Below are positions 17,504 through 49,934 of a stretch of 64,000 bases of DNA, piece by piece. Origin of the DNA: Pelecanus crispus (Eukaryota; Chordata; Aves; Pelecaniformes; Pelecanidae); contig NC_134654.1 of NCBI RefSeq assembly GCF_030463565.1, positions 14,896,202 to 14,960,201 of the forward strand, written 5' to 3'. Every line of letters starts with the position of its first letter. Positions within the stretch are counted from its first letter, which is position 1. Under the pieces are notes generated by a model. That model was not told the origin of the DNA and did no database searches. It saw nothing but the letters and a program-made list of their open reading frames with translations. A program made the position numbers and the translations under genes.

Positions 17504-17505
17504 GC

Positions 17506-18235
17506 TTGTTTAATATCTTTATCAATTATCTGGATGAGGGGATTGAGTGCACCCTCAGTAAGTTTGCAGATGACACCAAATTGGGCAGGAGTGTCGGCCT
17601 GCTCAAGGGTAGGATGGCCCTGCAGAAGGACCTGGACAGGCTGGATCGATGGGCCGAGGCCAACTGTATGAGGTTTAACAAGGCCAAGTGCTGGGTCCTG
17701 CACTTGGGTCACAACAACCCCATGCAACGCTACAGGCTTGGGGAAGAGTGGCTGGAAAGCTGCCTGCCGGAAAAGGACCTGGGGGTGTTGGTTGACAGGC
17801 GGCTGAACATGAGCCAGCAGTGTGCCCAGGTGGCCAAGAAGGCCAACAGTATCCTGGCTTGTATCAGGAATAGCGTGGCCAGCAGGAGCAGGGAGGTGAT
17901 TGTCCCCCTGTACTCAGTGCTGGTGAGGCCGCACCTGGAATACTGTGTCCAGTTTTGGGCCCCTCAACACAAGAAGGACATTGAGGTGCTGGAGCATGCT
18001 CAGAGAAGGGCAACGAAGCTGGTGAAGGGTCTGGAGCACAGGCCTTATGAGGAGTGGCTGAGGGAACTGGGGTTGTTTAGCCTGGAGAAGAGGAGGCTGA
18101 GGGTGGACCCTATTGCTCTCTACAACTACCTGAAAGGAGGTTGTAGTGAGGTGGGTGCTGGCCTCTTCTCCCAAGTAGTTAGCGATAGTACGAGAGGAAA
18201 TGGGCTCAAGCTGCGCCAGGGGAGATTTAGGTTGG
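17506..18235 (+). pseudogene. CR1 RT fragment between two LTRs
   Basis: The reading frame continues the CR1 RT from motif B onward (FADDTKL intact) for about 240 codons. It then runs into the inverted LTR at 18236, which adds foreign residues up to 18360. It is identical or nearly identical in protein to the other young CR1 copies here. Confidence 0.9.
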
Positions 18236-18821
18236 TGTCGTGGTTTAGCCCCAGCCAACAACTAAGCACCATGCAGCCGCTACCTAACTCCCCCTACCCC
18301 GATGGGATGGGGAAGAGAATCGGAAGAGTAAGAGTGAGAAACACTCCTGGGTTGAGATAAGAACAGTTTAATAATTGAAATAAAATAAAGTAAAATAATA
18401 ATAATAGCAATATAATAATAACAGTAATAATAATATACAAAGCAAGTGATGCACAATGCAATTGCTCACCACCCGCTGACCGATACCCAGACAGTTCCTG
18501 AGCAGTGATCGCTGCTCCCCGGCCAACCCCCCCCAGTTTATATAACCCCCCCCAGTTTATATACTGAGCATGACGTCATATGGTATGGAATAGCCCTTTG
18601 GTCAGTTTGGATCAGCTATCCTGGCTGTGCCCCCCCCTCAGTTTCTTGTGCACCTGGCAGAGCATGGGAAGCTGAAAAGTCCTTGACTAGCATAAGCAGT
18701 ACTCAGCAACAACTAAAAACATCAGCGTGTTATCAACATTCTTCTCCTACTAAATCCAAAACACAGCATTATACCTGCTACTAGGAAGAAAATTAACTCT
18801 ATCCCAGCTGAAACCAGGACA
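18236..18821 (-). mobile_element. Solo LTR, same family as 3497, target duplication GTTGG
   Basis: It starts TGTCGTGG, ends CCAGGACA, and is flanked by GTTGG on both sides (18231-18235 and 18822-18826). It is inverted relative to the LTR at 3497 and shares its ends, the TGACGTCA site (18571-18578), the ATT/AAT-rich block and the TATA region. The TATA segment is duplicated (see 18530-18565). Confidence 0.92.
18530..18565 (-). promoter_or_regulatory. Duplicated TATA segment in LTR
   Basis: Two tandem copies of CCCCCCCCAGTTTATATA (plus strand) put two TATATAAACTGG boxes in a row on the minus strand. The related LTR at 3497 has one. Confidence 0.7.
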
Positions 18822-19091
18822 GTTGGATATTAGGAGAAATTTCTTCATGGAAGGGGTAGTCAAGCATTGGAACAGGCTGCCCAGAGAGGTGGTGGAGTCA
18901 CCATCCCTGGAAGTGTTCAAAAAAGGGCTAGATGTGGCACTTTGGGACATGGTTTAGTCTAGTCTACCCTTGATTGGTTTAGTGTGGACTTGGTAGTGTA
19001 GGTTAATGGTTGGACTGGATGACCTTAAAGGTCTTTTCCAACCTAAACGATTCTATGATTCTATGGTTCACACATGCATATACACAGACAT

Positions 19092-28547: not shown

Positions 28548-28701
28548 ATGGGTATTCTTGCTGTACTTGCTCTACCGTTGCTTCTCTTAGGGATCAGTGG
28601 ATTTATTCATATTTACCAGTCAGTCAGGTGGCTATTGTCCAAGTCAGCCGTGCAAAACAAGGTGGTGGTGATCACGGATGCGATCTCTGGACTGGGCAAG
28701 G
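28548..28701 (+). CDS. DHRS7C: DHRS7C coding exon 1
   Basis: The ATG at 28548 begins [18 protein letters not shown], a membrane anchor, and the exon reaches the glycine-rich motif (TDAISGLGK). The donor GTGAGT follows 28701 and the exon ends in phase 1. Just before the ATG, TTTTGTTTCCCTCAG looks like a splice acceptor, so the 5' UTR probably starts in an upstream exon. Confidence 0.9.
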
Positions 28702-31700
28702 GTGAGTTGTCTCATTTCTTCTTGGTGTCAGAGAACAGAAACAGCCAGAGAACCACCCTCTAATAAATGTGCATACATTACCTTGTATATATTCATAACT
28801 GCCTGGATGAAACAGAAGTTAAGAAATATATTTTTAAACAAATCCTGTGATTTTTAAATGTACATTTTTAGTCTCAGCCACAGGGAGTGCTGGTAAACTT
28901 TTAGGAACTGCTGAGCTGTGTATTTATTTAATTCAATAGAACGAGAGGTTTTGTAAGCACATTAAGAGGACTATTATTAGCATGTTGCTACTATGAGATC
29001 TTATTACATAGGCAGTTGCTGCAGGGTAGCAGCAAATCGGTATAAACAGGTGTCACCTTACCCTTTACATGTTCCTTTTCAGCCCTTAAAGACTTCAACA
29101 TTTCCTATTCCCTGTAAACAACAGTGCTCACTCTTCTGTCCCCGTTAATATCTCTGCCCCCTCTATCACCAGTGTTACTCCTCTTCCCTTGACATCCTCC
29201 AGTACCTCCAACTGGGCTGCCTGGCTATATGTAACGGTGGGTTCAGTGGACAGAAGGACAGGGTATGTGGTAATTTATCTATTTATATAAGCTGATTGCA
29301 CGGGTGACCAGCCACTTAGCATATACATCTTGGCTTGTGTTTCCTGCCTACATGGTGCTGCCAGATTAAAGGTACGGGGTCATATATTGCTTATGTACAG
29401 TCCTGCTCTAGGTATCGCTCGAGGGGCAGTAGATGCAAGTGCCTGATAAAGCAAACATAGCTTGAGGCTACGTTTTGGCGTTTTCAATGAAGACTTGCTG
29501 TATGTTGGAAACCTTGCACTCCCAAGCAGAAAATAGATGGGGAAAGGGAATGCTCTTGCAGAATTTTTCCTTAGCAGAACAGAGCAGAGACCTGCAGTAG
29601 AAATACATACTATGCTGGAAAGGAGTGGTCTTTATCAGAGCCTGTTAGGACATGCTATGAAATAATTCTGACCTCCATATCCCACCTGGTCTTTCCCTTT
29701 CCCTGACACACTTCAGTTTCAGTTGAAGATAATATTAGCATGCATTTTCTTGGATTCATTGTATTTCAGTATTTTTATTTGGAGAGGCATGATTTAGAGT
29801 TCTCCAGCTGAGACTGGGTGTCTCATAGAATCATAGGATGCCTGGAGGTTTCTAGAGAAAAGTCCTGCTTGGAGCAGGAACATCATCAGTGCTAGATCTG
29901 GTTGGGTGTGGCTTGAAGCCAAATCTTGGAAACCTCCAAGGATAAAGAACATTTATTGAACATTTCTTCAGGTATCTTGCTCCAGCACTGCATGACCCCT
30001 GGGGAAGATTTTCGTAAGTTCAATTTCCTTCTTAAAATTTTTTTTTGTGACTAGCTGCTGCCTGTCTCTTGAAGCTACAAAGGCAAGCATCTCCCCCCCG
30101 CCCCCGTCCCTGCACCCTTTTTGACATAGATGAAGAAGGAGGTAACTCAAAGCAATTTTATTTTATTATCCTAAACATATCTACTGCCAGTATCCCATAG
30201 GGTGATACTGAGAAGTTATTTGCAGGCTTGAATTATTCCAAATCATGCAGAATTTACTGTGCAGTCCACTCATGCACATGTGATGGCCATTCATCCAGAG
30301 CTTTAAAATACCAGCTGTCTGGCCAGCTGCTGCATATTTGAGCTCTTAAGCAACAGCCAAATTCCTTTTCCCACATGCCAGAATTTCTGGACTAAAGATG
30401 ACATTCATCAAAGTTAAAAAAGAGAAACAAAAACTATCATGATTGAAGATGTCTGCAATGGTTTATGGTTGTTAATTAAACCTGATTCTTGTTTCTTCTC
30501 AGTGCTATAAATCAGAAAAGTCCAGGATAGTTCTAAATGAGAACATTGTTGGTTTCCCTTTTTCCCCTTTTATTGCTGTTCACACAGTAGTCTCATTTTA
30601 TTCACAAGGTTGCCCCAACTGTTATGTTTATAGAAAAAATACTGGTATAGTTGTTCTAGTACTGGCAAATAATCTTTTGGGCTTTAAATCAAAAATCTTT
30701 CTGTGCTAGAAAAAAGAAAATGAAAGACATTCATAAAATTACTGTTGTAAATAATGAAAAAGATTATGTAAATAAAAGTCTCCAGCTGCACAGGTTTACA
30801 AATATAGAAAAGTGGATCCAGAAGTGCTCCCATACAGATACTAAGAGTCTAACATGGGCATTCAGGAAATCTAACATGGGCACATTAGCATAACTGGATT
30901 TGCCTGTGAATATTGAAATCTGAAGAAAATGCTTTTTGGAGGACAGACAGCTATAGCACCAGGGTTGTACTGTTGTCCATTCAACAAAGGTCATAGGAGC
31001 TAAGACAAATCAAACAGACTTGAAAGGCATAAGAGTAATTGTAAGACCATATTCCTGTTCTTCGCATGCTGAATATGTAACTGTCATACAGATTTGATTT
31101 AGGGACCAAATATGGGGGCTCCAAGGCTGAGAGCTTTTTGGAAAACCTAATCAGGAAGAAAGCCATGAGAGGAAAAACAACTCTTAATTTCTAGTCTTAC
31201 CAGCACACATAAACCACGGTCAACTGATTGTCTGGCTGCACCCAAACCAAATCTGTGGTTTGGGGCACAGTGGGCACATCATCAGCTGCATTCTCAGGCC
31301 TAGAGGCAAGACATTATTTATTCCAAGAAAGAAAAGGCAGGCAATTGTGTACTTTTCCTGGTCAGGAGGACAACCTTGACAGATTCCTTGGCTAAAAGCC
31401 AGTTTCAGTTCAGCTGAGCTAGAACATCCACCCTGTAGCAGCCTATAATAGCCAGAGGGATACAACTGACTATTAATTCCTAAAAGATGTCCATAAGATA
31501 TCTATGCTCCATGTTTTTAAACGCCTTTCTTTAGTCAAACTGACAGAACAGTGAGGAATATATTCTCCCTCAACACCACCTAGAGAAGAAAATAGACCAG
31601 ACACATGCTGTCAAGATGATCCAGCCTGGTATTCCATCACATGGATTGAGTGGATCACATACTACCATGAAGACCTAAACTAATGAGTTGGCTGCAGTCT

Positions 31701-34700
31701 TGTAGCTAGTGCTGAGGTGGGATGATGGGTAACATTGACTGCCAGTTCCTCTTGTTATACGAGTCCCCACTTTCAAAAAAGCACAATCATAGTTCACTTA
31801 CATAAGAAAAGGAGAAGAATCCTCCCCAGAGACCTAGCTTAAACTGGGGTGAACCCCTAGCTCAGAATATCCCTGAATAGATGGAGAAAAAGCAGTGCCA
31901 GCCCAGCATACCCAGAAACTTCTCAGTAGCCTTCTCAGGAAGGCTTCAGGGAATGTAGCTGAAAAAGAGGCAGCTCAAGCTCGTCCCTGGTGCCTCTGCT
32001 GACTACTGGGAAGGTCTAATACTCAGGAGTTAAAGATCTTGGGATTGATTACATGTGAGGGAAGAGTCTGTAAAGGAAAGGCCTCTCTCATTGGTGCTCC
32101 ATCTGTAGGTCAGTGGGTAGTAAGTTTCTCTGTATTGCTCTTTCACAAAACTGTAGACAAGTTTCATGTTGCCAAGAGTTTCATGAAGGTAGCGTACAGA
32201 GCTAGTTTTAGTATTTACTAGAGTTGCTTGGTTTCTTCGTTGTACTGCAGCAGACATGAAGATTTGCAAAAGATGCAGTTTGTATTGTAAAAACCTTAAG
32301 CGTATATTTTTGTATGTATTTTTCTTTATAGCAAGTGTGTCTGTGGGTGGAGAAAGTTAAGGAACAAAGATAATCAGAATAATTTTTCTAACTCAAACCC
32401 ATCATCCATTAACTGGCATATTGTTCTTTTCTTAATTAAATTTGTATTAAATCCCATGACTAAACTGTACCATTGTGCTGTAACTGTGCATTATACCATT
32501 ACATTAATTTTTAGTTTATTACTCATATATTATATTATTATATTAGTGCTTCCTTTTTTCTCATATATATTTATTCTTTCAAAATTAATGAATTTTAAAG
32601 CATAAATTCAACATCACTAGCAAAAACAACATCCCATTTCAAGCAAAATAAATAAAATCAGATTGTTGTTATTGTTATTATTTCTTTTGAACACATTTCT
32701 CTCCTAGAATGTTCTCGGGTGTTTCACACAGGAGGAGCAAGGCTTGTGTTGTGTGGCAGGACGCTGGAAAAGTTAGAAGCCTTGTATGATGCTTTAATTA
32801 GTGTGGCAGATCCCAGTATGGTAAGTATATCCTCACTCTGCTTTGAAAATTCACAATTTGAGGTAAACACCTTGTTCATGTACACAAAGTGCTTTTAAAT
32901 CCAATAAAACAAGGTACATGAAACATGATTGATTATTAATGGTGATTTTGATCACCCAGGTAACACACCCAACACAGTCCAGAGAGAGAGAGAGAGAGAG
33001 AACCACCTCTGAAGGTCTTCAGAGCATGATGCCAGAAGTATAAGTCAGAAATCCTGCTCTCTTGAGCTAATTCAAGGCAGTTACTGTAAAGCAACTGAGT
33101 GGTCCTGCATTTTGAATAAGCCATCCAACTAGAAATGCTAGGCAGAATAATTTGCCTGTTAATTTGGATGAAAAGGATCCAAAGTGCTTCATTTAATCAC
33201 AGGAACTATCACCCATTGTCCGCATAATTAGAGTGCTCAAGGAGTGGGAGATGAGTCTAAAGATTGAATTAATTTTGAGTTTCTCCTCTACTTTGAGAGA
33301 AGTCCCAGCTAGAAGGGCATGGGAGCATGTGAATAAGAATGCCCTTTCCTCATTACCACTGACTAGGTCACCATGCAAGTACACATGTAAGGCTGCCCCT
33401 GCTGCCAGTTCTTTGGAAGGTGTTTCTTTGATGCTCATGGGAAAGCTTTCCTTCTGTGACCAACAGATAGCTGACTCATTTCAGGGCACAGATGTTCTTG
33501 AAGGCATCACACAAATTCTACAGCCATTGCTCAGCAGACCAACAAATATTTGCGTTTGACCCTTTTTTTGCATCGAGCTTCATTCATCTGCATAAATAAC
33601 CAGAAAAGTAGTGTGTTCATGTCAGTCTGTGCAGACTCAACTAGGAAAAAAATATTAAGTATGACTAAGGGGTCTGCATTACATCATCGTTGTAATACAG
33701 TAAGAGAAGATACTCAGAGTTCATTCCTCTGTCCCATAGCCGATAAAATCCACATCTTTGCAAAAAATGTACAAATGTAAACATTTGGATAACCTATACC
33801 TGAACAAATCATTCCTACCTTCCAATTGCCCCCCATGTATAAGTAAATTATCTGTCAAAGCACCATATCCTAGACTGTATGGTCAGCAAAGTTCTCCAGA
33901 GGGCTGCTTACAGAAAGACCATAACTTGGAGTTGTAGGAGTCACCCCTGTGTCTATTATCTGTCTCCACTGATTACAAGAGAGACAAACTCAATAGTAGA
34001 GCTCAATGTGTAAAGCTAGTCCAGCTTACCCTTCCCATGGTGTTCTGCCCCATCTGAATTTCAAAATCTATGAATACCCATTGCTGAACTACCTACTTTC
34101 TAGAGTAGGTTAAAAGAACAAATCAAAGTTTTGTGAGAATGATAAAAACACTTTCTTCAGATATCAAGGTAAATTAATTTATAAGACAAGTAAATAGAAA
34201 TACATTTTTATATAACAGGTATCCTTGAAATAATTATTTTCTTTATTAGACATATGCACCAAAGCTCCTACTTCTGGATATCTCAGACATAAACAGCATT
34301 CAAGATGTAGCTAAGGAAATCCTGAATTGCTATGGCTGTGTGGATATACTGATCAACAATGCAAGTATGAAGGTGAAAGGAGCAGTGCAGAGCATCTCAT
34401 TGGAACTTGATAAAAAGATAATGGATGCCAACTATTTTGGACCTATAACATTAACCAAAGGTATCTTAATTTTTTTTCCTGTTTTGCTGTTGCCACTTAA
34501 AGCTTGAGATCCAAGTCATTGGCATCACACTGTTTCATTTGCACTTATTTTTGCCTTCTTCACTATAATCAAAGACAATTCTGTGAAAATCAATGGACTG
34601 AAATTGAGGTGAAGAAGATCAAAATCAGAGTGCCTGGGTTTGGAAATAGATTGGTCAAGAAATATATAAGCAGATGTTTGAAAGACAAACATTTTTCAAA

Positions 34701-37700
34701 ATGTCTGCTTATTGTATTTTGCATATGGTGACTCCTTTATTTACATGATTGCTGCCTTTGTTACAAAGACAATTGTTTTCAAAGCCCTTGCAAGGATACA
34801 GACAGGCTGACAATTAAATGTGATAATACTGCACCAAGTCTGCATGTAGAATCCAAGTGAAGTCTAAAGACACTCAATTTCCAGCTACTAGATTTTGTGA
34901 TATTTTTAATTGCAGTATGGAGACAACCTTCACTGAAGTTTTGCTATCTACACTTCACTTGTCATTTCTTTTCACTAAATACATTGAGGTCCTTTACTTA
35001 TGTGGCTCTTTCTTGTCTTTCTTTTTTTTTCAGCCATTCTTCCCAATATGATCTCAAGAAGAACTGGCCACATTGTTCTAATTAATAGTATCCAAGGAAA
35101 AATAGGAATCCCTTTTCGTGCTGCTTGTAAGTTATATATAGCAAAAATGTACATTCTAATGCATAAATTGTGAGTATTCCATAGTGCTGATAATAGGTTA
35201 TAAAAAGTGTTAATTTGCATCCTAAGTCAGTAAACTATTAACACAGTATTTGGCTGAAAAATTTTCAAAGTAGAATTCAAGAAGAAATAGTTAAAATACT
35301 ATCTTTGAAGTATGACTACTGCCTAAGGTACTTGAGGTACTTGAGGACAAGAGGATAGGAAATGTGACAGCAAGGTTTTTTTATGGTCTTAGGAGGCATT
35401 CAGGAAACAGCAGACTTGTAGGTCTAACATCTGTACTGGGCATATTAGTAGAAATCATAATGAAGAATGAAGTAACATACTGGTAGATACTAGCTACTGC
35501 TTTGTAAAGGGAGACTCAGGCACTTAATGGATTTATGTGCAGGAGTTTAAAAGGACATGTAGTAATTGTATTCTCCTTAGCTTTCCCGAAAATTTTCAAG
35601 GTCTTTCATCGAAAGCTCCTGATGAAACTAATCTGTCCTGAATTATGATAAGAGGTCTTGGCATTAATAAAATGCAAATGTAGTGGACAGAAAATATAGG
35701 ATAGATGTAAATAGACATATTTAACTGTGACAGGAGGTCAGAGTATATGGGCTCTGAATTAAAAGGCCTGTGAGACCTCAGGATTGTGACTTACAGTTCC
35801 AAAACCACAGCAAAACACAGTGACAGAAACTGTAAGGAAAGCAGCAGAGAAAAAAATTGAATCCTGTGTTTATGCCTTTGTATAAATCTATGCAGTGCTG
35901 ACATCTTGAAAATTGTGTGCAATTCTGGTCCCCCATCTCAAAAGAAGTATAAAGACTACAAAAAAGGCTCAGAAAAGAAACAGCACATTGAAGGGACATC
36001 TGGAATGATTTCCACCTAGGACACAGCTGATTGTGTCAAGATATATTGTATGTGTATAAAATCATGATCATGAGTAGCAGAAGAGCTAACAGAGAGAGTT
36101 TTTACAATGCCTCTACCAATATCTATGTTGCATGAAATGAAGCTGCCAGAAGAAGCAATTTCAAAATGCATGAATGGAGAATCTTCTTTCCATTCCTGGA
36201 GCCCACCTGCCTTTTTTTAGATTATATTATGCACCAGCTGATTTTCACTGCAAACTGAGTCAAATACAAAGTGGACAAGTACTTTGCAGCTCTGCTGCAC
36301 TTAACACACAGTTCTGTTTTTTGGCCAAGGTTCACATACTATCATCCTTCTTTAATATCATTCTCAATAAAAAGGCATTAAGAGCAGATGAAAAAGTTCT
36401 TAACATTCATTTACTTTAAAACTAACTTTAATATTAAAAGCATCTTGGATTGCTGCTGCAGGGCAAAGGCCTAATTAGTTTACAAAATATTAGTACTCCT
36501 GCATTTCAGAAATGGACATGTATTGCACTGCATTTTATTGAGGTGTCATAAACTGCAGCAACAGATGGCATAGAGACTCGCCTCAGGGACAGCTGTCCAC
36601 CCACCAAAGACATTTGTAAACTGTAGATATAATGGAATCATAGATTTGTAGAATTATAGAATGCTTTGGGTTGGAAGGGACCTTTAGACATCATCTAGCC
36701 CAACCCCCCTGCACTGAGCAGGGACATCTGTCCTTATTCTTTACAGCATACCCAGTATTCTGAAACTGGCACCTTCAATTCTGCAGATGAACAAAGCAGT
36801 TGCTAAGAGAGTTTGTATACACTCCAGTAGAAGCAGTCTCAATCCCTTGACCAGAACAGAAGGTCTTGATTCCTTCCATTTGTTTCATGTATTTCTTTGT
36901 GATAGAGATGTTTCTAACATATTCACTGACAGAGGAATTATTTCCTCTGGCCTTCTGCTTTTCTTCCTTTATAATAACTGTGGTCTTTTTACAATAGATT
37001 ATTACCCAGCTTATCTTGTTTCTGGGTGCCACCAATGAATTTCCACCTCATCCAGGAACATACTTGGTTGGTGTCTACAAGATTTTTAAAAGATCTAATT
37101 TAAGCACCTTAATTTTTTTCTTAGCCTGCAGTTCATAAACACAGACTGGTAGTCTCTACCATATGCTCTTTCCTCAGGATTGTTTCTCACTGTGGTTTGC
37201 ACTCATATAAGGTGCTGTATGCAGACAAGAGCTTTTAAATAATTATGCAATAGGACCCCCATCCTGACCAATTCTTAAATCTGGTTTTCACATGCTAACC
37301 ATTCAAGAAGGTATGTGTCTTCTGCCAGATGTCTGGTAAACAAATTCACCCCACAAAATGCAAGACTTCTTAACCATATTTGGAACCCATGATTTCACAT
37401 TCTGGCCCTTATTTTAACTTTTGACTCCCAGTTTGTAGACATTGATAATTCTGGGGTAAGTTGAAAGCAGGCAAAAAAAAAAAAAGCTTATCAAATCATA
37501 GAATCATAGAATCATAGAATCATAGAATCATAGAATGCTTTGGGTTGGAAGGGACCTTTAGAGATCATCTAGCCCAACCCCCCCTGCACTGAGCAGAGAC
37601 ATCTTTAACTAGATCAGGTTGCTCACAGCCCCATCCAAACTGACCTTAAATGTTTCTAGGGATGGGGCCTTCACTACCTCTCTGCGCAACCTGTTCCAGT

Positions 37701-39689
37701 GCTTCACCACCCTCATTATAAAAAATTTCTTCCTTACACCCACTTTAAATCGACCCTCCTTTAGTTTAAAACCAATATTCCTTGCCCTGTCACAACAGGC
37801 CTTGCTAAAAATATTGTACCCATCCTTCCTATAGGCCCCCTTTAAGCACTGAAAGGCTGCAGTAAGGTCTCCCCGCAGCCTTCTCTTCTCCAGGCTGAAC
37901 AACCCCAACTCTCTCAGCCTGTCCTCGTAGGAGAGGTGGTCCAGCTCTCAGATAATTTTTGTGGCCCTGCTCCAGCAGGTCCATGTCCTTCTTGTGCTGA
38001 GGGATCCACAGCTGGATGCAGTACTCCAGGTGAGGTCTCACCAGAGCAGAGTAGAGGGGCAGAATCACCTCCCTCAACCTGCAGGTCATGCTTCCTTTGA
38101 TGCAGCCCAGGATGTGGTTGGCTTTCTGGGCTGCAAGCGCACGTTGTTGGCTCATGTCCAGCTTTTCATCCACCAGTACCCCCAAGTCCTTCTCCGCAGG
38201 GCTGCTCTCAATCCCTTCATTCCCCAGCCTGTACTGATATCGGGGGTTGCCCCGTCGCAGGTGCAGGACCTTGCATTTGGCCTTGTTGAACCTCATGAGG
38301 TTCACACAGGCCCACCTCTCCAGCTTGTCCAGGTCCCTTTGGATGACATCTCGTCCTTCTGGCATGTCAACCGCACCACTCAGCTTGGTGTTGCCTGCAA
38401 ACTTGCTGAGGGTGCACTCGATCCCATTGTCTATGTCATTGATGAAGATATTAAACAGCACTGGTCCCAGTTCGGACCCCTAAGGGACTCCACTTCTCAC
38501 CATAATAGAAGTATTATTCCTTAATCAGGGCTTAATATTTCTGATTGGGAAATTCAGACACATGCTCTTTGACATGTATCGGGAGACTGACTACATACCT
38601 CATGCATAATTGTCCTGTACAAATAATTCTTTTTGTTTGTTTTAAATATGTCGCATGATAATTTCACTGGGTGAAATAATTCAATGTTCCTTTGCCTTTT
38701 GGCTAGTCATTCCATGCTCAATTTTCCAAACATTCATGTTTTATGGAGCTCTGTCATACATCTATATCCATGCATTCATATATCCAAACATGCGTATGTG
38801 GGTTTTTTTCTTTATTTTAGATGCTGCTTCTAAGCATGCTGCTGTAGGCTTTTTTGATTGTCTTAGAGCTGAAATGGAAGAATTTGATATTTCTGTCAGC
38901 ACTGTGAATCCAACCTTCATCTGTTCATACCATCACCAACTAGCACCTGGCAACTGGGAGGCATCTATTTGGAAATGTAAGGTTTGATGCATCAAGAGAG
39001 AAAGTAGATGAGGCCCATATAGCAGTATGGAGGCTTTTCCCAGGGAGAAGAAGGGAGCATAGGGAAAAGAACGGAAATGACAGAAACGATGAACAGGTTG
39101 GGGGATCAAAAGAGAAGAGCGATTGGAGACATCAATTGACAGTGGTGAAAAGAGAAGAAACATGGAAAGGAAACATTATGTGAGAAAATAAATACACCAG
39201 GACATGGGGAGTGGAGGTAGAACAGAGCATAAAAGGTCCCAAGGGATACTTCTAGTGCGTTCAAGTTGCTCCTTCTCTTAGGCACTGTGAGGATTTTACT
39301 CCAAAATTGTAAAAAGATCTTAGGGACTTACTGATGAGGGGAAGGGAAGGGATAAGGGATTGAAAGTGTGTAGGAATTTAACTAATTTGGCCGATGCACT
39401 AGCTGTGTATCTTTTCACCACCATTCCCTCAGATGTGTGTCTGTCTGTCTGTAGCTCTCACTCCTCTGTTTGATTTACAGTCTTTTTCAGAAAGGTGGCA
39501 TATGGTGTGCACCCAGTGGAGGTGGCAGAGGAAGTCTTGCGCACAGTGAGCAGCAAGAAGCAGGAGGTACTTCTGGCCAACCGTATCCCCAGAGCAGCAG
39601 TTTACATTCGCACCTTCTTCCCTGAGCTGTTTTTTGCCATTGTTGCCTCAGGAATTAGGGAAAAGCTGAAGACAGAAGAAGAAAATTGA
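28548..39689 (+). CDS. DHRS7C: DHRS7C, SDR-family dehydrogenase/reductase 7C (six coding exons)
   Basis: Exons 28548-28701, 32708-32820, 34250-34460, 35034-35126, 38821-38976 and 39481-39689 join with GT-AG introns into 936 bp, or 311 residues plus stop. The N-terminus is a signal-anchor-like hydrophobic stretch (residues 3-20). Then come the cofactor-binding motif [14 protein letters not shown], the INNAS motif, a catalytic serine in NSI and the catalytic YAASK. The family (also called SRP-35) sits in muscle sarcoplasmic/endoplasmic reticulum and has been linked to retinol oxidation and calcium handling. Length matches the vertebrate protein. No stop or frameshift was seen, so it looks functional. 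Intron 4 carries one arm of a large inverted repeat. Confidence 0.93.
28702..32707 (+). other. DHRS7C intron 1
   Basis: 4.0 kb. It contains an old CR1 tail (29823-29950) and a C-rich run near 30092-30108. No other gene was recognised. Confidence 0.8.
29823..29950 (-). repeat. Old CR1 3' end
   Basis: CATAGAATCATAGGATGCCTGG is the inverted octamer tail. The body is strongly diverged. Confidence 0.5.
32708..32820 (+). CDS. DHRS7C: DHRS7C coding exon 2
   Basis: 113 bp after TCTCTCCTAG. With the split codon from exon 1 it encodes [17 protein letters not shown] and on to ADPSM, the second beta-strand/helix of the Rossmann fold. The donor is GTAAGT, phase 0. Confidence 0.93.
32821..34249 (+). other. 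DHRS7C intron 2, with (AG)n microsatellite at 32981-33001
   Basis: 1.4 kb. About ten AG units lie at 32981-33001. No other feature was recognised. Confidence 0.8.
34250..34460 (+). CDS. DHRS7C: DHRS7C coding exon 3
   Basis: 211 bp after TTTATTAG. It encodes [11 protein letters not shown], the INNAS motif in place of the classical NNAG, and [11 protein letters not shown], where the asparagine of helix 4 is kept. The donor is GTATCT, phase 1. Confidence 0.94.
34461..35033 (+). other. DHRS7C intron 3
   Basis: 573 bp, ending in a long T tract (CTTTTTTTTTTCAG). No embedded element was seen. Confidence 0.8.
35034..35126 (+). CDS. DHRS7C: DHRS7C coding exon 4
   Basis: 93 bp. It encodes [20 protein letters not shown]; the serine of NSI lies in the usual place of the SDR catalytic serine. 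The donor is GTAAGT, phase 1. Confidence 0.94.
35380..36120 (+). repeat. Ancient CR1-like LINE fragment
   Basis: Stretches such as TGTACTGGGCATATTAGTAGAAATC, TTTGTAAAGGGAGA and GTGTGCAATTCTGGTCCCCC match, in order, conserved stretches of CR1 RT. It is very diverged and the ends are approximate. Confidence 0.6.
36636..36727 (-). repeat. CR1 3' tail abutting inverted-repeat arm
   Basis: On the minus strand it reads ATGTCCCTGCTCAGTGCAGG to decayed ATTCTATA octamers, the last about 90 bp of a CR1. It touches the left arm with no gap. Confidence 0.85.
36728..38494 (-). repeat. Inverted repeat, left arm (1767 bp)
   Basis: The reverse complement matches 46985-48753 almost base for base. Coordinates map as x+y=85479 in the CR1 part and 85481 after one 2-bp indel (GGTTTTCACATG here, GGTTTTCTCACATG in the other arm). 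One mismatch was seen, at 36733/48748. It consists of a CR1 3' part (37497-38494) and about 770 bp of non-CR1 sequence (36728-37496). Confidence 0.95.
37609..38461 (-). pseudogene. CR1 RT C-terminal remnant in left arm
   Basis: Two frames (210 and 99 residues) overlap out of register. The active-site box reads KFAGNTKL, so both catalytic aspartates are replaced. The frames are residue-for-residue the same as those at 47018-47870. Confidence 0.92.
38821..38976 (+). CDS. DHRS7C: DHRS7C coding exon 5
   Basis: 156 bp. It completes the catalytic YAASK, then encodes [19 protein letters not shown] and ends at IWK. The exon lies between the two inverted-repeat arms. The donor is GTAAGG, phase 1. Confidence 0.93.
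39481..39689 (+). CDS. DHRS7C: DHRS7C coding exon 6 and stop
   Basis: 209 bp after TGATTTACAG. It encodes [20 protein letters not shown], a hydrophobic C-terminal stretch ([13 protein letters not shown]) and ends EEEN with TGA at 39687. Confidence 0.93.
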
Positions 39690-39775
39690 TTTTGTCTGGT
39701 TCTTTTCCCTGCTTTTGATCTGCAAAAAAGTTTATGTTTCAAATGTCAATGATACCTGCTTCTCACTATGGGCAG

Positions 39776-39781
39776 AATAAA
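39776..39781 (+). terminator. Candidate DHRS7C poly(A) signal AATAAA
   Basis: AATAAA lies 87 bp after the stop codon. It is the first candidate, and its use is inferred. Confidence 0.5.
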
Positions 39782-42700
39782 GCAGGAGGCTTTATTAAAC
39801 ATGAACCAACAAATGTCTCACTTAGTGATTCACTACCATTGACACACATTCGTCTGTGGGACTTCTACTCTTCTGGATTTAGTGAATATGACAAGATGTC
39901 ATTGTTTGCATTACAACAGTATGGTAAAAACTCTACTAGGAACTCTATCACTGTTATAAGAGAGTGATTGCCAATCTAAATAGGTAGATCAATGTTTGGG
40001 GACCTGCAGCAACTTATCAGAACAGTCTGTCAGTGCTAGGACTGACGGGAATTTACAGGAACAAAGTAGGGAGGTGTGAGAGAGAAAGGGGTAAAAATCA
40101 GTGGAAAATGGGATTAGAGCCTGTTCCTCAGATGTGCTTTTTGGAAGTACTTGCAGGATATGCAAATGGTGAGCCCAAATAAGGGCTTATCTAGTTTATA
40201 AGAATAGGCCAATAATATGGAGAGACTCCCTATATATACTCTCCCAGGTCCTGGTAATCTACTACATAGTGTGGAGCAGAATCTGTCTGCATCTTATTAA
40301 ACTATCCGTTTTTCACACAAATTTTTCAAATTCCTATTTGAAACATTCCAGCCCTGAGGAAAGGAACTAATCAAATATAAAAAAAGACTTCCTTTTCTTT
40401 ACTTTAAACCTGGTGTCTGGTAATATTCTCTGATATCTCCTACTTCTTTTGCTGAGAGAGACAAAAAATAACGGTACTCAATTCATTCACTCCCAGTCAC
40501 CTGTGCCCATCAATCATACTTTCCATGCAGTTACCTCTTTTCCAAGTTGGAGAGCCCTGGTATCTATTCACTCTCTCTTTGTGAGAAGTCCAGATTATTA
40601 TTCTTGTTCTTCTTTATATCTTTTCTTGGTTTACCTTATCTTTTCATTTGTTTGTTTTAAGATGGACAGGCCACAGCTGCACACAGCATTCAAGACAGAT
40701 AAAAAATCAGGATTCACACAGGCATACAGATGCTTCCTGGGTTTTTCACTTCTTTTCTTCTTTTGCATGTCTTATGCAAATTCCTGGTTTTGAGGGATTT
40801 CTCTGACTGCTACTGAGCATTGAGTTCTCTTGTCCACACTGCTACATGTGGTAATTAATTATCATGTCCAACATGAGTGTGGCCATTACTCGTGTCACTT
40901 GTGTAAATTCCATATATTCCCAAAGTTATCTCATTCCTAGCCATTTCAGGCTTCTCTTCCCTATCACATTTTCCCAGTTCATGCTGAGGACTTACCCCCT
41001 TTTTGTCTGATCTTGTGAGCTGAACCAGAATATAAATAAAGCTAATGCAAGGGTGTCCTGATCTTCAGTTTTACATCTAAGAGCTTAAATTCTGTCTCCC
41101 AAACCCTCCCCTGGCCTGTCCTGTGTCATCAGTCAGTACTCACAGAGATCATGACTACCTGCTTTTTTGCAGATGCTGTCAAAATGCGTTCTTTGCAGAA
41201 TACAAAGGAAATACCTGCTCAGAAAGCATGCAACCAAACTGCACTTGCTGCTACAAGTCCCATTGCTCATATAACTTTCAACACCATCTGCACTTATCTA
41301 CCTCTTTCTCTCAGTAAAAATCACCAAACATGAAAGGAATTATCAGTGCAAGGAAATAGACGGTTATCATCTTGCAGGGACATTAACCTTTTCTTGTATC
41401 TCTAATTCAATTGTCCTGGCTTCAAGAAACATGCATGCATCTCCCTCACTCAGGGAGGTAGTTCACAACTAGTGAGAAGTAGCCAGTTCCTGCAGTACCT
41501 GCTGGAGCTCCGTCTATTTTCTGTTGTAGCACTGGGCTTTTATTGTTGTTTGAATGACTGTACCTTAACTGTGAATTCAAACATCCACTTTGTCCAGAAT
41601 GTTCTTGCTCCTTACCAGAACTCTACTCCCTCAAACAAATGGGCTTTTGTTGTGGTCTCAGTTATACTTGTGTCTGTACCTCAGCAACAGCCAAGTCCTC
41701 CACAGCTCAAAACCAAGATACAGAGTAACTGGGTAATTTCATCAGAAAGGGATCAGGGAATCATAGGATATCACAGCTAAACATGAATCAACATTGTCTT
41801 GATTTGTTGTAAAAACAAGTAGATTGCATGTTAAAATAAGCTAAATAATCATTCTGCTCCATTTTGCACTTTCTAGATATCAGCAGAAATTCTTCATTGG
41901 TTTTGAGTATTACACTTTAAAAATGTGGAACAGATCAAGAAAACACAGTGAAAAGCAGTGAGTGACAAAAGTAAAATAACATCGGTGATCTATAAAGAAA
42001 TTTTTAAAGAACAAATGTATTTTAATCTAGAAAATAGAATAAAGGTATATCTAAAGAGTTTTCAAATATCTAAAATGTACTGCCAAGAGGATAGAATTAA
42101 ACCACTCTCCATTTCTCCCGTAGTAGGACAATGTGCTAAAATTACAAAGGAGATTTACAGGGAAAGAATTTTCTGCTAAGAATAGTTAAGCACGAAGGAT
42201 AAATTGCCACAGAAATTTCAGAATGCCTGTCTTTGGAAGCTTTAAAGAAGAGATTAATGAAACATCTGTAAAAAAGCACTGTAGCTTTAGTTTATCCTGC
42301 CTAGAGGAAAAGAAGGATTAAGTGACCTTTTAAATGGGTCACACTTTTCTATAACTGTGTGGGTTTTTCTCATATTGAGAACTCATATTGAGTTTCTCCA
42401 GCGGTATTTCTGAAGTAACATATTTTTCTCAGGGGAAATCTAGTATTTAATCTGAAGTTTTCTATTTCATTTGTCCATCTCTGCCTCACTGTCTAAATGC
42501 CTGTGGATATATGTTCCATGTAAAAGTATTATGATAATAAAAAGAAATATTATGAGGAGTTCATTAAGAGATATTTTCTGTAAGCCTCACTCAGCCATAT
42601 TTTAATCTATGTAGATTCCTTAATAATACATTTATAAATGACAAACTAGGCCTGCAGATTTAGTTGTAGAAGTCACAGAAGATATTCAGCTACAGATCCT

Positions 42701-43248
42701 TTAATTTTTTTTTAAGCTTCTTACATGCCTAAAGGGCACATAATTTTCTTTTAATGTAAGCTGCAGTTGTACTATTTTAAATTTACATTTTTTTCTGCTG
42801 AAATCAACTATTTCTTAGTGTTGGCCAAGAAAATTGACATTGCTGGATACAAGGGCCTTTGAAGTAAGGAAGAATTTAAAACAATGCTAAGACTGGAAAG
42901 TCTTAGAAGTGAGGAGACTCTTGTCTAATTTTAGACATCTGTCCTAGATACAGCCTACCAGCTGAAGGCTGGTCCTAGATACAGCCTACCTACTACAGCT
43001 AACCTCCCAAATCCCCTTCTTAAGAAGTGGAAAAAACCAGTTGCCTGTAACCTGTGATTTATCTGACATACAGCTTAGGATAACATGAATTGCATCGTAG
43101 AAGTGCCTATTTCTCTCATTAACTTTCACTGGACTGTAGGTAACCAGCACAACTGTAGATCTGTGTATCTGTGCCACAGGCATCTGAAGTTTACTGAGAT
43201 GCCACATTGATTGGGTCAAATGAACTAGAATAAAAATGCCACGATATT
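39782..43248. other. No gene recognised; DHRS7C 3' flank
   Basis: No exon was recognised. AATAAA also occurs near 41034. A 19-bp direct repeat (GTCCTAGATACAGCCTACC) lies at 42941-42959 and 42972-42990, a 31-bp tandem duplication. Confidence 0.5.
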
Positions 43249-43317
43249 TTCCCCTTCTGAGGGGAAATTATCCCCTCAGGATATTATAAGGGGAATATTA
43301 TCCCCTTCTGAGGGGAA
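43249..43317. repeat. Cluster of short palindromes
   Basis: TTCCCCTTCTGAGGGGAA (43249-43266) and TCCCCTTCTGAGGGGA (43301-43316) are near-identical hairpins with a TCTG loop. The DNA between them adds TCCCCT and AGGGGA in inverted order. It lies just upstream of the long CR1. Confidence 0.8.
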
Positions 43318-43391
43318 TGGAGAGTCCAATATGCTGGGCAGACCCTTCTCATAGTGAAGTCCACTGACTCCCAGGAGCCCGGGTCAGAGAT

Positions 43392-43787
43392 ATCACTAAA
43401 AGACTTCCCAGCCTGGTACATCCCTCAGACTACTATCCATTACTGCTTTTCCACGTGGGTGGTGACAAAGTTGCAGTATGTAGCCCACGGGTGACTAAAA
43501 GGGACTTCAGGGCCTTGGGACGGTTAGTGAGGGAATCTGGGGCACAGGTTATTTTTTCCTCTCTCCTTCCAGTTGTCAGCGGTGACATTGGAAGGAACAG
43601 GCAGACCCAATCTATTAATAGATGGCTCCATGGCTGGTGCCACCATCACAACTTTGTGTTTTTTGACAATGGGATGGCCTACACAGCACCAAGCTTGCTG
43701 GTGTCAAATGGGAGCCACCTTTCTCAAAGGGAAAAGAGGGTCTTTGCTCAGGAGCTTGCAGGACTCATTGACAGGGCTTTAAACTAG
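43392..43787 (+). pseudogene. CR1 ORF1, C-terminal esterase-domain fragment
   Basis: The frame reads through DYYPLLLFHVGGDKVA, VIFSSLLPV, FVFFDNGM and NGSHLSQREKRVFAQ to a TAG at 43785. These match the SGNH-esterase blocks of CR1 ORF1, with the late D/H block as NGSHLS. The N-terminal half is missing. It is not a host enzyme. Confidence 0.75.
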
Positions 43788-44009
43788 ATGTGAAGGAGCA
43801 GGGGGAATATATCAGGCTTGCCTGTGACAAGCTGTGGTACACTGGTTAGAGGGATGGAGTGCTACTATGAGTCCTCAACCTGTTGCCCAGAGGTGTGCTG
43901 GGAACACTGCAGCACAGTTGAAGTCTTGCAGAGGTGAGCTGGGGGCTCCTGAGGTAGTAGGAGCCAACAAGGAAACCTCTGTGAAACACCTCAAGGGAAA
44001 CAAGGGGTG

Positions 44010-44236
44010 TTCCACTAAGAAGGTTGCATGGCCAACAGCCCAGATCAAATGCCTCTACACGAACATACACAGCATGGGGAACAAACAGGAGGAGTTGGAA
44101 GCTACTGTGCTACTAGAAAGCTATGACCTGATTGCCATTACTGAAACATGGTGGGATGAATCCCATGACTGGAATGTGGCTATCGATAGCTACAGGCTGT
44201 TCAGAAAGGACAGGTGCGGAAGGAGGGGCGGAGGTG
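44010..44236 (+). pseudogene. CR1 ORF2 endonuclease, N-terminal part
   Basis: IKCLYTNIHSMGNKQEEL starts the AP-endonuclease-like domain, and IAITETWWDE carries the catalytic glutamate. The frame is cut by the LTR at 44237 in the stretch GRRGGG and resumes after it with VALYIKK (45209). Confidence 0.85.
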
Positions 44237-45203
44237 TGTCACAACCCGAACTGGACTGTCCAGAGGGGATTGTGGAGGTTCTGTGATTCCCTTGGGCTAA
44301 ATTAAGGTGGAACAACACCAAACGATCAATTAACACTTTATTGACATTAAACACCAACCTGAACTTGGAAAGCACCATGATATGCAGGGGTTGAGTCACA
44401 AGGTTCAGAATAGACCCCCTTGCTTTCTAAACTCCTTTCCAGACAGGAGTCTAGGTGCGGCTAGGTCTAATCTTAGTCTCAGACTTGGTCAACGGTTTAT
44501 GTGAAATAAGGAGGCAACTCAAACCAGGAAAGCACCACAATAAGCAGCGTGGGTTCTAATCCAAATGCTTATAAAAGGAAAGGAAAAGGAAGGAAGAGGA
44601 GAGAGAGATACTACCACCCTTGGATCCTGCCATGTTGATGATAAACAACGACAGTCCTCCAGCAGTGGGTGCACTTCTGCCGGAGCACGGGGCCTCCGGC
44701 TGCACTGGCAGTGGGGGGGGGGGGGGGGGGGCAAGGGGCGGGGGGGGGGTAGGTGTGGGCTGGGGGGGGGGGGGCGGTTTGGGGCAGGGGCGGCAGCAGC
44801 GTGGGATCCTCTGATCGTGGGGTGCACCGCGTGGCTCCTCGAATTGTGTCTTTTATAGGCCAGTCCCTGCCTCTAGTCTCGCCCCCCTTGAGGCTTATTC
44901 CAGAATGTTCTCCAACTTCTGCGCAGGCACCACTGTGGGGGGGGTTGGTCGCAAGAGGTCTTTCAGGTAGTCGTGAGCCCCTTCCTCAAATGAACTCTGC
45001 ATGACCTTTGGCCACCAGAGGGCAGAACTGCGAGTCCTCTGACACGCCTCCTGGCTCCGTGCCAACTCTGCACCAATCGGCTTCTCACCTGTGGTGCTAT
45101 GCAGACCCCAATTTATCACTATGGAGACCTTAACTTGTCTCTTTGCAGACCTTAACTTGCCTCACCACAATGTTTGAGGCATTAACTCTTTCAGTCCCTC
45201 ACA
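44237..45203 (-). mobile_element. Solo LTR with 5-bp target duplication
   Basis: It starts TGTCACAACC and ends CCCTCACA. The flanks are AGGTG (44232-44236) and AGGCG (45204-45208), one C/T apart. On the minus strand a TATA box CCTATAAAAG (about 44862) and AATAAA (about 44340) set the orientation. A very G-rich block lies at 44712-44790. It is about 967 bp long and unlike the other LTRs here. It splits the CR1 endonuclease frame. Confidence 0.85.
44712..44790 (+). repeat. Poly-G tract with G-quadruplex potential
   Basis: Runs of about 19, 10 and 13 consecutive G are separated by short spacers. The proline-rich minus frame over it is an artefact of the C runs. Confidence 0.9.
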
Positions 45204-45208
45204 AGGCG

Positions 45209-46135
45209 TTGCCCTCTACATAAAGAAATCACTACAGTGTGAAGAGCTGTCCCTGAAGAATAGCCACGATCAGGTCTAAAGCTTATGGGTAAGAATTAGA
45301 GACAGAGGCAACAAGGGGAACCTTGTGCTTGGTGTCTAACTACAGGCTGCCTGATCAAGGAGAGCCTACTGACAAAGCCGCCTTCCTCCAGTTCCAGGAG
45401 GCTTTGCACTTGCAGACTTTCATTCTTACTTGGTTTAGTGGTGGACTTGGTAGTGTTAGGTTAATGGTTGGACTGGATGATCTTAAAGTCTTTTCCAACC
45501 TAAACGATTCTATGATTCTACTGGGGGACTTCAACCACCCCAACATTTGCTGGAAAAGCAACATGGCAAGCTCTAGGCAATCCAGGAGATTCGTAGAATT
45601 CATTGAGGACAACTTCCTAAGCCAGGTAATAGACACCCCTACCCGAGGGGATGCAATATTGGACCTGATGGTCACCAATGCAAGTGAGCTCATTGGTGAC
45701 ATCAAGACTGGAGGCAGACTGGGCTGCAGTGATCATGCGTTGGTGGAGTTCACGCTCCTGAGGGACATGAGAAAAGCAAGGAATACGGTCAGGACCCTGA
45801 ATTTTAGAAAAGCAAGCTTCCAGCTCTTCAAGGAGTTAGTCAGAAGGACCCCCTGGGAGACAGTCCTCAGGGACAGGGGAACGGAACAGAGCTGGCAGAT
45901 CTTTAAGGACACCTTCCATAGAGCGCAAGAGCTCTCAGTCCCCAAGTGTAAGAAATCAGACAAGGAAAGGAAGAGACCAGCATGGCTGAGTCAAGACATG
46001 CTGGTCAAACTAAAGAGTAAGAGGGAACTGCAAGAGGGCAGTGGAAGCAGGGACAGGTGTCCTGGGAAGACTACAGGGAATCTGCCCGGTTGTGTAGGGA
46101 GGGGATCAGGAAGGGCAAGGTACAGCTGGAGCTGA
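45209..46135 (+). pseudogene. CR1 ORF2 endonuclease, C-terminal part, with inserted tail
   Basis: The frame holds VALYIKKSLQCEEL, YRLPDQGEP, then foreign residues from a CR1 tail, then ILLGDFNHPNICW (catalytic D and N) and SDHALVEFTLLRDM (the SDH motif). The open frame crosses the inserted tail without a stop. It ends at 46135 after a frameshift in the linker to RT. Confidence 0.85.
45431..45519 (+). mobile_element. Nested ~90-bp CR1 3' tail
   Basis: The insert runs from TTTAGTGGTGGACTTGG to GATTCTATGATTCTA and interrupts the endonuclease codons before LLGDFNHP. The host sequence at the site (CATTCTA) resembles the tail octamer. Confidence 0.85.
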
Positions 46136-46223
46136 ATTTGTCAAGGGATGTAAAGAATAACAAGAAGGGCTTCTACAGGTATGTCAACCAGAAAAGGAAG
46201 GTTAAAGAAGGCGTACCCTGCCA

Positions 46224-47870
46224 ATGAACAAGAATGGTGACCTAGTAGCAACAGACGAGGAGAAGGCTGAGGTACTCAACAGCTTCTTTGCCTCAGTATT
46301 TACCGGCAACCTCTCTCCTCACCCCTCCCGAGTCGATAGACCACAAGATGGGGACGAGGCGGGTAAAGCCCCTCCCACCACAAGGGAAGATCAGGTTCGA
46401 GACCACCTGAGGAACCTGAATGTACACAAGTCTATGGGACCTGATGACATGCATCCTAGAGTCCTGAAGGAAATGGCTGATGTAGTTGCCAAGCCACTCT
46501 CCATAATATTTGAAAAGTCATGGCAGTCAGGTGAAGTCCATGCTGACTGGAAGAGGGAAACTTTGTGCCCATTTTTAAAAAGGGAAGAAAGAAGTACCCT
46601 GGGAACTCCTGACCTGTCAGCCTCACCTCTGTGCCTGGGAAGATCATGGAACAGATCCTCCTAGAAACTATGCTAAGACACATGGAAGACAGGGAGGTGA
46701 TTTGAGACAGTCAGAATGGCTTCACCAAGGGCAAGTCCTGCCTGACCAACCTAGTGGCTTTCTATGAAGGAATGACTGCATCAGTGGACAAGGGAAAAGC
46801 AATGGATGTCATCTATCTGGACTTCTGTAAAGCCTTCAACACAGTCCCCCACAACATCCTTCTCTCTAAATTGGGGAGATATGGATTTGATGGGTGGACT
46901 GTTTGGTGGATAAGGAATTGGCTAGATGGTCATATCTAGAGGGTCGTGGTCAATGGCTTGATGTCCACATGGAGACTGGTGACCAGTGGAGTCCCTTAGG
47001 GGTCCGAACTGGGACCAGTGCTGTTTAATATCTTCATCAATGACATAGACAATGGGATCGAGTGCACCCTCAGCAAGTTTGCAGGCAACACCAAGCTGAG
47101 TGGTGCGGTTGACATGCCAGAAGGACGAGATGTCATCCAAAGGGACCTGGACAAGCTGGAGAGGTGGGCCTGTGTGAACCTCATGAGGTTCAACAAGGCC
47201 AAATGCAAGGTCCTGCACCTGCGACGGGGCAACCCCCGATATCAGTACAGGCTGGGGAATGAAGGGATTGAGAGCAGCCCTGCGGAGAAGGACTTGGGGG
47301 TACTGGTGGATGAAAAGCTGGACATGAGCCAACAACGTGCGCTTGCAGCCCAGAAAGCCAACCACATCCTGGGCTGCATCAAAGGAAGCATGACCTGCAG
47401 GTTGAGGGAGGTGATTCTGCCCCTCTACTCTGCTCTGGTGAGACCTCACCTGGAGTACTGCATCCAGCTGTGGATCCCTCAGCACAAGAAGGACATGGAC
47501 CTGCTGGAGCAGGGCCACAAAAATTATCTGAGAGCTGGACCACCTCTCCTACGAGGACAGGCTGAGAGAGTTGGGGTTGTTCAGCCTGGAGAAGAGAAGG
47601 CTGCGGGGAGACCTTACTGCAGCCTTTCAGTGCTTAAAGGGGGCCTATAGGAAGGATGGGTACAATATTTTTAGCAAGGCCTGTTGTGACAGGGCAAGGA
47701 ATATTGGTTTTAAACTAAAGGAGGGTCGATTTAAAGTGGGTGTAAGGAAGAAATTTTTTATAATGAGGGTGGTGAAGCACTGGAACAGGTTGCGCAGAGA
47801 GGTAGTGAAGGCCCCATCCCTAGAAACATTTAAGGTCAGTTTGGATGGGGCTGTGAGCAACCTGATCTAG
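46224..47870 (+). pseudogene. CR1 ORF2 reverse transcriptase, broken
   Basis: Pieces in order are KSMGPDDMHPRVLKEM (46224-46664), [15 protein letters not shown] (motif A, 46754-46939, then TAG), [22 protein letters not shown] (47018-47650) and the C-terminal frame (47571-47870). Motif C reads FAGN where active copies have FADD. Several stops and shifts are present. Confidence 0.88.
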
Positions 47871-48753
47871 TTAAAGATGTCTCTGCTCAGTGCAGGGGGG
47901 GTTGGGCTAGATGATCTCTAAAGGTCCCTTCCAACCCAAAGCATTCTATGATTCTATGATTCTATGATTCTATGATTCTATGATTTGATAAGCTTTTTTT
48001 TTTTTTGCCTGCTTTCAACTTACCCCAGAATTATCAATGTCTACAAACTGGGAGTCAAAAGTTAAAATAAGGGCCAGAATGTGAAATCATGGGTTCCAAA
48101 TATGGTTAAGAAGTCTTGCATTTTGTGGGGTGAATTTGTTTACCAGACATCTGGCAGAAGACACATACCTTCTTGAATGGTTAGCATGTGAGAAAACCAG
48201 ATTTAAGAATTGGTCAGGATGGGGGTCCTATTGCATAATTATTTAAAAGCTCTTGTCTGCATACAGCACCTTATATGAGTGCAAACCACAGTGAGAAACA
48301 ATCCTGAGGAAAGAGCATATGGTAGAGACTACCAGTCTGTGTTTATGAACTGCAGGCTAAGAAAAAAATTAAGGTGCTTAAATTAGATCTTTTAAAAATC
48401 TTGTAGACACCAACCAAGTATGTTCCTGGATGAGGTGGAAATTCATTGGTGGCACCCAGAAACAAGATAAGCTGGGTAATAATCTATTGTAAAAAGACCA
48501 CAGTTATTATAAAGGAAGAAAAGCAGAAGGCCAGAGGAAATAATTCCTCTGTCAGTGAATATGTTAGAAACATCTCTATCACAAAGAAATACATGAAACA
48601 AATGGAAGGAATCAAGACCTTCTGTTCTGGTCAAGGGATTGAGACTGCTTCTACTGGAGTGTATACAAACTCTCTTAGCAACTGCTTTGTTCATCTGCAG
48701 AATTGAAGGTGCCAGTTTCAGAATACTGGGTATGCTGTAAAGAATAAAGACAG
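46985..48753 (+). repeat. Inverted repeat, right arm (1769 bp)
   Basis: It matches the reverse complement of 36728-38494. The CR1 part (46985-47982) continues upstream without a break into the long CR1, so this arm keeps the original context. The remaining ~770 bp is non-CR1 flank and contains a 13-T run (47994-48006) that is also 13 long in the other arm. Confidence 0.95.
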
Positions 48754-49117
48754 TCTTTTCTAAGGATGAAAGGGGAAATCTTATTGCTGTCTACAGCTAC
48801 GTAGTGTGATGGTGTAGAGAAGATGGAGCCAGACTCTTCTCACATGTGCACAGTAGAAGAAAAAAAAGGTATTGGACAGAAATCGGAACACATGAAATTC
48901 TGGTTAGATATTAGGAAATATTTTTTCCACAATTACAGTAGTCAAGCATTGGGACAGGTTGCCAATGAGGTCAGGAAATGTCACTTCTTGAATATATTCA
49001 AAACTCAACTGCTTAAGGCTCTGAGCAACATCATCTAATTGGTCTGGTTTTGAGAGAAGGAGGAGGGTCCAGAAACCCCCAGAAGTACCTTCTAACTTAA
49101 ATTATTCTATAATTCTA
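48754..49117 (+). repeat. Old CR1 3' part
   Basis: GGGGAAATCTTATTGCTGTCTACAGC, then ATTAGGAAATATTTTTTCC and a decayed octamer (ATTCTATAATTCTATG) form an older CR1. It starts exactly where the right arm's homology ends. Confidence 0.85.
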
Positions 49118-49934
49118 TGTGAATTTATAGGTATAGGTGAGTCTTGCAGCTGGTCTCCAGCCAAGATAATTTTGATATTAGTGAGAGAATGTGATTCTGT
49201 CAGTTTTCCCACTGGAAGGGAAAATTTGCATGAATACCAAATGCTAAAAATGCTGAAAATTAATGAAAGTGCAGATAAATTAGGCAGAGTAAAATACAAA
49301 ATCAAACAAACCCCGGTGAAGGTACCAGGAGATGACTTTGGGTATAAATACCTGACTGACATCCTTTAGCAAGTCCCACAGTGCTCTGTGCAATAAGGTG
49401 TCAGCTGGTAGGACACAGTCTACCCCAGTCACTATTCAGAGATGCCACTTTACATTGTTTGTTTGTTTGGTTGGTTTTAAGGTGTTCATGAGTGTTTAGA
49501 AACTGGGAATATGTTAAATTAATAAGGATAATACTATGGCAATTGTTCTTTCTAAAGTTTGTGTGAATGAAGTGATGGTGCACAATGACCATAAATTAAT
49601 CAATTATAAAGCTAGTGGACTGCATATAACTTATGATATCTCCACAGGATGTGAAAAGCATGAAGAAATTATCATGCTAATTTTAAGTTGTACACAGTCA
49701 GATACTGTTATAGGACAGGAGCCAACAGCTGATTGTAGGAAAATATAGGCTGATGAAAAGGAATTTCTGCTTTTGGGTAGAGGGACAAAACTTGAACCTT
49801 GAAAATAAAAGTTCATTCAGTATTTGAAGTGTACAGAAAGAAGCAATCAGTACAAAAGAGAACAGGAGAATGAGGTTCCAAATATTTCCAAATATTAGAA
49901 TCAATTTTGGGGAGGCAGCAGGGGAAGGATTGTA
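49118..49934. other. No gene recognised
   Basis: Mixed, AT-rich sequence with only short open frames on both strands. Confidence 0.5.

Follow-up and report, generated by a model that had tools for sequence, protein, structure and literature searches.

The question raised by this locus is how two almost identical, oppositely oriented copies of a 1.77-kb segment came to lie on either side of exons 5 and 6 of DHRS7C, and what such an arrangement could mean for the gene. Within the window, i.e., the whole 64-kb stretch of Pelecanus crispus DNA that was analysed, self-BLAST aligned positions 36728-38502 with 48753-46977 on the minus strand at 99.7% identity (1777 columns, 3 mismatches, 1 gap), and a repeat finder returned the same arm pair as two parts split at the indel. 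Base-by-base alignment of the left arm (36734-38494, 1761 bp) with the reverse complement of 46985-48747 (1763 bp) revealed 0 substitutions. The sole difference inside the arms proper is one 2-bp indel, placed at 37287 on the left and 48192-48193 on the right, and deletion of the latter 2 bp renders the arms identical. All three self-BLAST mismatches are located at the match edges, namely, at 36733, the sixth base in from the outer match limit, and at 38495-38496, the inner limit. The near-perfect inverted arms of about 1.77 kb described in the initial annotation were accordingly recovered by all three approaches, and its coordinate sums are right (38494 + 46985 = 85479; 36734 + 48747 = 85481). 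The same applies to the claim of a shared homopolymer and shared octamers, since a run of 13 identical bases (37473 on the left, 47994 on the right) and an octamer array of 5.4 copies (37494-37536 and 47943-47985) were found in each arm. The inverted repeat is genuinely present in the supplied sequence, and chance is no issue at a length of 1.76 kb. The three parts of the structure are as follows.

36734..38494, minus strand: left arm, probably a derived inverted copy, in DHRS7C intron 4; 0 substitutions, one 2-bp indel
46985..48747, plus strand: right arm, probably the source copy; the 3' 1.0 kb of a CR1 element plus about 760 bp of flank
38495..46984, no strand: spacer of 8490 bp; contains exons 5 and 6, which code for residues 191-311, as well as upstream sequence of the putative source CR1

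The position of the arms relative to the gene follows from its exons, which were located by tblastn with a human DHRS7C protein sequence serving as the query.

28548..39689, plus strand: DHRS7C coding region in six exons, based on tblastn, the joined CDS and homologues
28548-28701, 32708-32820 and 34250-34460, plus strand: DHRS7C exons 1 to 3
35034-35126, 38821-38976 and 39481-39689, plus strand: DHRS7C exons 4 to 6
39776..39781, plus strand: possible polyadenylation signal, the first AATAAA after the stop, 87 nt past the stop codon

The joined CDS of 936 nt encodes 311 amino acids plus a stop, and every intron is bordered by canonical sites, with GT after exons 1 to 5 and AG before exons 2 to 6, so that the earlier description of an otherwise intact gene holds. 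A protein search yielded 2646 matches; among the 120 matches listed, the first six are bird DHRS7C proteins, and the best homologue listed (P0001, Alca torda) is identical at 295 of 311 residues. YxxxK is the active-site motif of the SDR family, and the Tyr codon of the corresponding YAASK is split across the exon 4/5 junction. Exons 5 and 6 both lie between the arms, in agreement with the proposed spacer of about 8.5 kb containing two coding exons, and have the same orientation as exons 1 to 4. Pfam searches of the spacer in three frames per strand detected no short-chain dehydrogenase exon at E 0.001, and Rfam returned 0 matches at gathering scores for the whole window. The spacer also contains a G-rich tract of about 84 bp (44707-44790). 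The coding sequence ends in exon 6, AATAAA follows shortly after it, and the right arm starts 7296 nt past the stop codon. The left arm is accordingly placed within intron 4 (3694 nt; 1933 nt minus the insert), whereas the right arm comes after the gene. Judged by the last coding exon and the AATAAA motif, the right arm would thus be outside DHRS7C, provided that the 3' untranslated region is of ordinary length.

Which of the two arms came first is indicated by a transposon that spans the inner edge of one arm but not that of the other, and it is this configuration that reveals the direction of the duplication. The right arm contains the 3' part of an old, degenerate CR1 element.

45494..47985, plus strand: body of the putative source CR1, with endonuclease and reverse transcriptase remnants and an octamer tail; 5' limit approximate

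With stops read as X, Pfam detected Exo_endo_phos_2 and RVT_1 matches in this element (remnants at 45494-45745 and 46583-46933); its frames are interrupted by stops and shifts, and its octamers end at 47985. Three alignments with other CR1 copies of the window run across the inner edge of the right arm at 46985 (13677-14600 versus 47620-46708, 16550-16785 versus 46783-47018, and 39-732 versus 46938-47620), whereas the corresponding self-BLAST matches on the left stop at 38457-38469. A single CR1 copy (1-1090) illustrates the asymmetry, as it matches 46938-47620 on the right and reaches only 38469 on the left, i.e., 71 bp less. No CR1 remnant and no other match within the window were detected in the 326 bp beyond the left arm (38495-38820). 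The element being continuous on the right and cut on the left, the right arm is probably the source and the left arm the derived copy, a test of direction that covers the inner edge. The flank of the right arm (47990-48747, 758 bp) has no match in the window apart from the two arms, and the copied piece consists of part of a CR1 plus flank rather than of a mobile element as a unit.

The surroundings of this CR1 contain further remnants. A weak GDSL-lipase match (43368-43784, E 0.0017, below the curated cut-off) is located upstream of it, and a tail belonging to the younger CR1 family (45425-45520) lies between this match and the ORF2 part. CR1 elements carry an ORF1 esterase, and the match may represent that of the source CR1, which may once have been longer. 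Diverged plus-strand CR1 pieces just past the right arm (48900-49120, short matches of 72-84%) indicate that the source region itself is rich in CR1.

The continuation of the CR1 at the right arm, together with exons 5 and 6 standing in line with exons 1 to 4, argues that the spacer of the assembly is in its ancestral orientation. This bears directly on an origin by inversion through staggered breaks. In an arrangement inverted in this way, the breakpoints are marked by inverted duplications (PMC5080602, partial text), and the arms would then be such a breakpoint duplication. A single event of this kind predicts that the CR1 of the spacer runs into the left arm and that exons 5 and 6 are reversed, but the CR1 runs into the right arm, the exons are in line, and the spacer appears to have kept the ancestral orientation. 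This scenario could be saved only by assuming a second flip, and we regard it as extremely unlikely.

The absence of substitutions in 1761 bp corresponds to a 95% upper bound of 0.17% per site. At avian substitution rates of 2-4e-9 per site and year, this bound translates into an age of less than about 0.2-0.4 million years, provided that gene conversion is absent. The arm pair would accordingly be very young, and the insert may still be polymorphic. One indel combined with zero substitutions is a slightly odd ratio for copies that age neutrally. Nearby, near-identical arms can undergo mutual gene conversion, and an old inverted repeat whose arms were kept identical in this way would mimic youth. 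However, identity reaches within about 6 bp of both match limits and the edges are not graded, and there is no positive evidence for conversion, so that we consider such an old origin very improbable. Inversions and duplications made up less than 0.2% of structural variants in haplotype-resolved vertebrate assemblies according to a 2026 preprint, which names technical difficulty as one reason for this share (PMC13320814, partial text).

The least explained point of the locus is the outer edge of the left arm, which directly adjoins a fragment of another CR1 element.

36624..36729, minus strand: CR1 3'-tail fragment, apparently old, with degenerate octamers; abuts the outer edge of the left arm
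36728..36733, no strand: outer junction of the left arm; five bases in common with the source, a 2-bp overlap with the CR1 tail, mismatch at 36733
38495..38502, no strand: inner junction of the left arm; two mismatches, then 6 bp in common with the source

Both joins of the left arm are abrupt and non-homologous. If the present flanks were once contiguous, overlaps of 2-3 bp can be read by eye, which are too short to carry weight. The tail fragment (106 bp) is 90.7% identical to the source tail at 47875-47980 over 107 columns and 78-82% identical to seven other CR1 tails of the window over 33-70 bases; its degenerate octamers look like those of an old resident fragment. At most about 5 bp separate the start of the copy from the edge at which this tail is truncated. 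Either the rest of the CR1 was lost when the arm was inserted, or the CR1 edge was the site of the break, or tail and arm were inserted jointly.

Joint insertion would point to the CR1 machinery itself. CR1 reverse transcription needs a tail with a hairpin and octamers, and a template switch has been suggested in the case of a bird SINE (PMC5729268, partial text). On this reading, the reverse transcriptase would have started out on RNA of the intron 4 tail, switched over to RNA from the source region and broken off at 46985, yielding a chimeric retrocopy. Tail and arm do adjoin in the same CR1 sense, and the inserted unit would end in an octamer-bearing CR1 tail, as priming of the CR1 reverse transcriptase requires in the partial text of the same source. 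Moreover, the putative unit is flanked by a 9-bp near match with 8 of 9 identical bases (ATAATGGAA at 36629-36637 and ATAATAGAA at 38502-38510). As a target-site duplication for a joint insertion this near match is no better than chance, since matches as good occurred in 169 of 3000 random pairs when 31-base pieces were drawn from 28.7-44 kb (6% with 30-base pieces), and it carries a mismatch though the arm has none. The tail also differs by about 9% from the source tail and has the degenerate octamers of an old resident copy. With a genome size of about 1.1-1.2 Gb, the chance that a random genome insertion falls this near (8.5 kb) to its source would be in the range of 1 in 10^5, which speaks against a trans-acting RNA and favours a local DNA event. 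On balance, a retrocopy made by the CR1 machinery is in our view quite improbable.

A fairly recent activity of CR1, which would suit a retrocopy, is suggested by copies in the window that are 98.5-99.6% alike, and recent CR1 expansions have been described in several bird lineages (PMC8665684, partial text). The copies 1-1090, 13184-14600 and 17505-19069 belong to one family, are 95-99.6% alike over matching stretches and retain long open frames of 296-415 amino acids, which likewise indicates that CR1 was fairly recently active in the lineage. Independently of the arms, the window contains a 586-bp insertion (18236-18821) in the CR1 copy 17505-19065 that is flanked by a 5-bp direct repeat, present as a single copy in an uninterrupted CR1 (847-851); the insertion is 84% similar to 3499-4032 and looks like a solo LTR. 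Minus-strand frames at 10745-11830 match RNase H and RT_RNaseH and represent retrovirus-like pol remnants.

The abutment on a CR1 edge is also relevant for the possibility that the left arm is an assembly artefact, in which a gap-filling or haplotype error placed a reversed copy of 46985-48747 at the CR1 edge in intron 4. A CR1 tail could be a likely site of a gap, the arms lack any substitution, and the 2-bp indel could reflect two alleles. Against this, there is not a single N in the 64 kb, and CR1 stretches that are 98.5-99.6% alike over 244-731 bp were resolved in the same window. Both joins are clean, and a mis-join driven by repeats should fall in CR1 homology, which the outer join does not. 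Finally, the copies differ by a 2-bp indel that is not in a homopolymer. We consider an assembly error unlikely, yet serious enough to be kept in mind.

The explanation that we regard as probable is a very young, local, inverted dispersed duplication generated by DNA template switching. Two copies, their near identity, a copy with the ancestral context at its inner edge and an intact gene were observed, and a second, reversed copy of a nearby segment is present with the source in place. In the proposed event, 1763 bp of sequence located about 7-9 kb downstream of the gene, comprising the 3' kilobase of an old CR1 and its flank, would have been copied once, and the copy would have been placed in reverse in intron 4, next to the older CR1 tail. 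The mechanism that we infer is template switching at the DNA level during replication or break repair, of the FoSTeS/MMBIR type. What counts against it, besides the slightly odd ratio of indels to substitutions, is that a duplication into a random site of the intron does not explain why the arm starts near the truncated edge of a CR1 tail, an adjacency that needs the loss of the remaining CR1, coincidence, or a role of CR1. Among the matches listed for DHRS7C in one open-access library, no title refers to an inverted duplication, and a search of this library for CR1 inverted duplications in birds found nothing on the subject by title.

Since every DHRS7C splice site is left intact by the insert, little or no effect on the normal transcript is predicted. 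In principle, recombination between the arms could invert exons 5 and 6 and would thereby inactivate DHRS7C. In a human study, 11 of 16 analysable repeat-mediated inversions had signs of recurrence (PMC3961182, partial text). A live switch, with exons 5 and 6 segregating in both orientations and a DHRS7C null allele recurrently made and unmade, nevertheless seems highly unlikely to us. A long RNA duplex is likewise possible in principle. It would require transcription more than 7.3 kb past the stop (a read-through of 7-9 kb), because a transcript ending near the AATAAA at 39.78 kb holds one arm. A search of one open-access library for read-through combined with inverted repeats and editing found nothing. 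Exon circularisation by flanking intronic repeats was considered as a further candidate and rejected, given that no coding exon follows exon 6 and the right arm lies 7.3 kb past the stop.

If the duplication is real, it represents a very young structural change within a muscle gene that is conserved, and it offers a small substrate, easy to genotype, for determining the rate at which flips between short inverted repeats occur in birds. Should it instead be an assembly error, it calls for caution in surveys of inverted repeats.

Among known systems, the inferred event resembles human templated inverted duplications of the FoSTeS/MMBIR type, in which a copy of a nearby segment enters a new site in reverse orientation through an abrupt join. 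In one F8 case, an intron received a nearby duplicated segment, and one of the breakpoints showed 2 bp of microhomology; unlike in that case, as far as the partial text of the source (PMC7507428) describes it, the segment here measures 1.76 kb instead of 119.5 kb, the gene is unbroken, and the change was not seen as a new mutation. The juxtaposition of an octamer-bearing CR1 tail at one end with other sequence upstream is reminiscent of PittSINE, a CR1-mobilised bird chimera (PMC5729268, partial text), but the tail at the DHRS7C locus looks old, the source is only 8.5 kb away, and no significant target-site duplication was found. The nearest parallel is the pair int1h-1/int1h-2 of F8 (PMC7507428, partial text). 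These copies are about 126 kb apart and their inversions are documented in patients, whereas the DHRS7C arms are separated by 8.5 kb and known from the sequence of one assembly. In both pairs the copies are near-identical, one being intronic and the other outside the gene (for DHRS7C according to the last coding exon and AATAAA, and with the arms inverted), and just as a crossover between the int1h copies separates exons of one gene, a crossover between the arms described here would separate exons 5 and 6 from exons 1 to 4 of DHRS7C.
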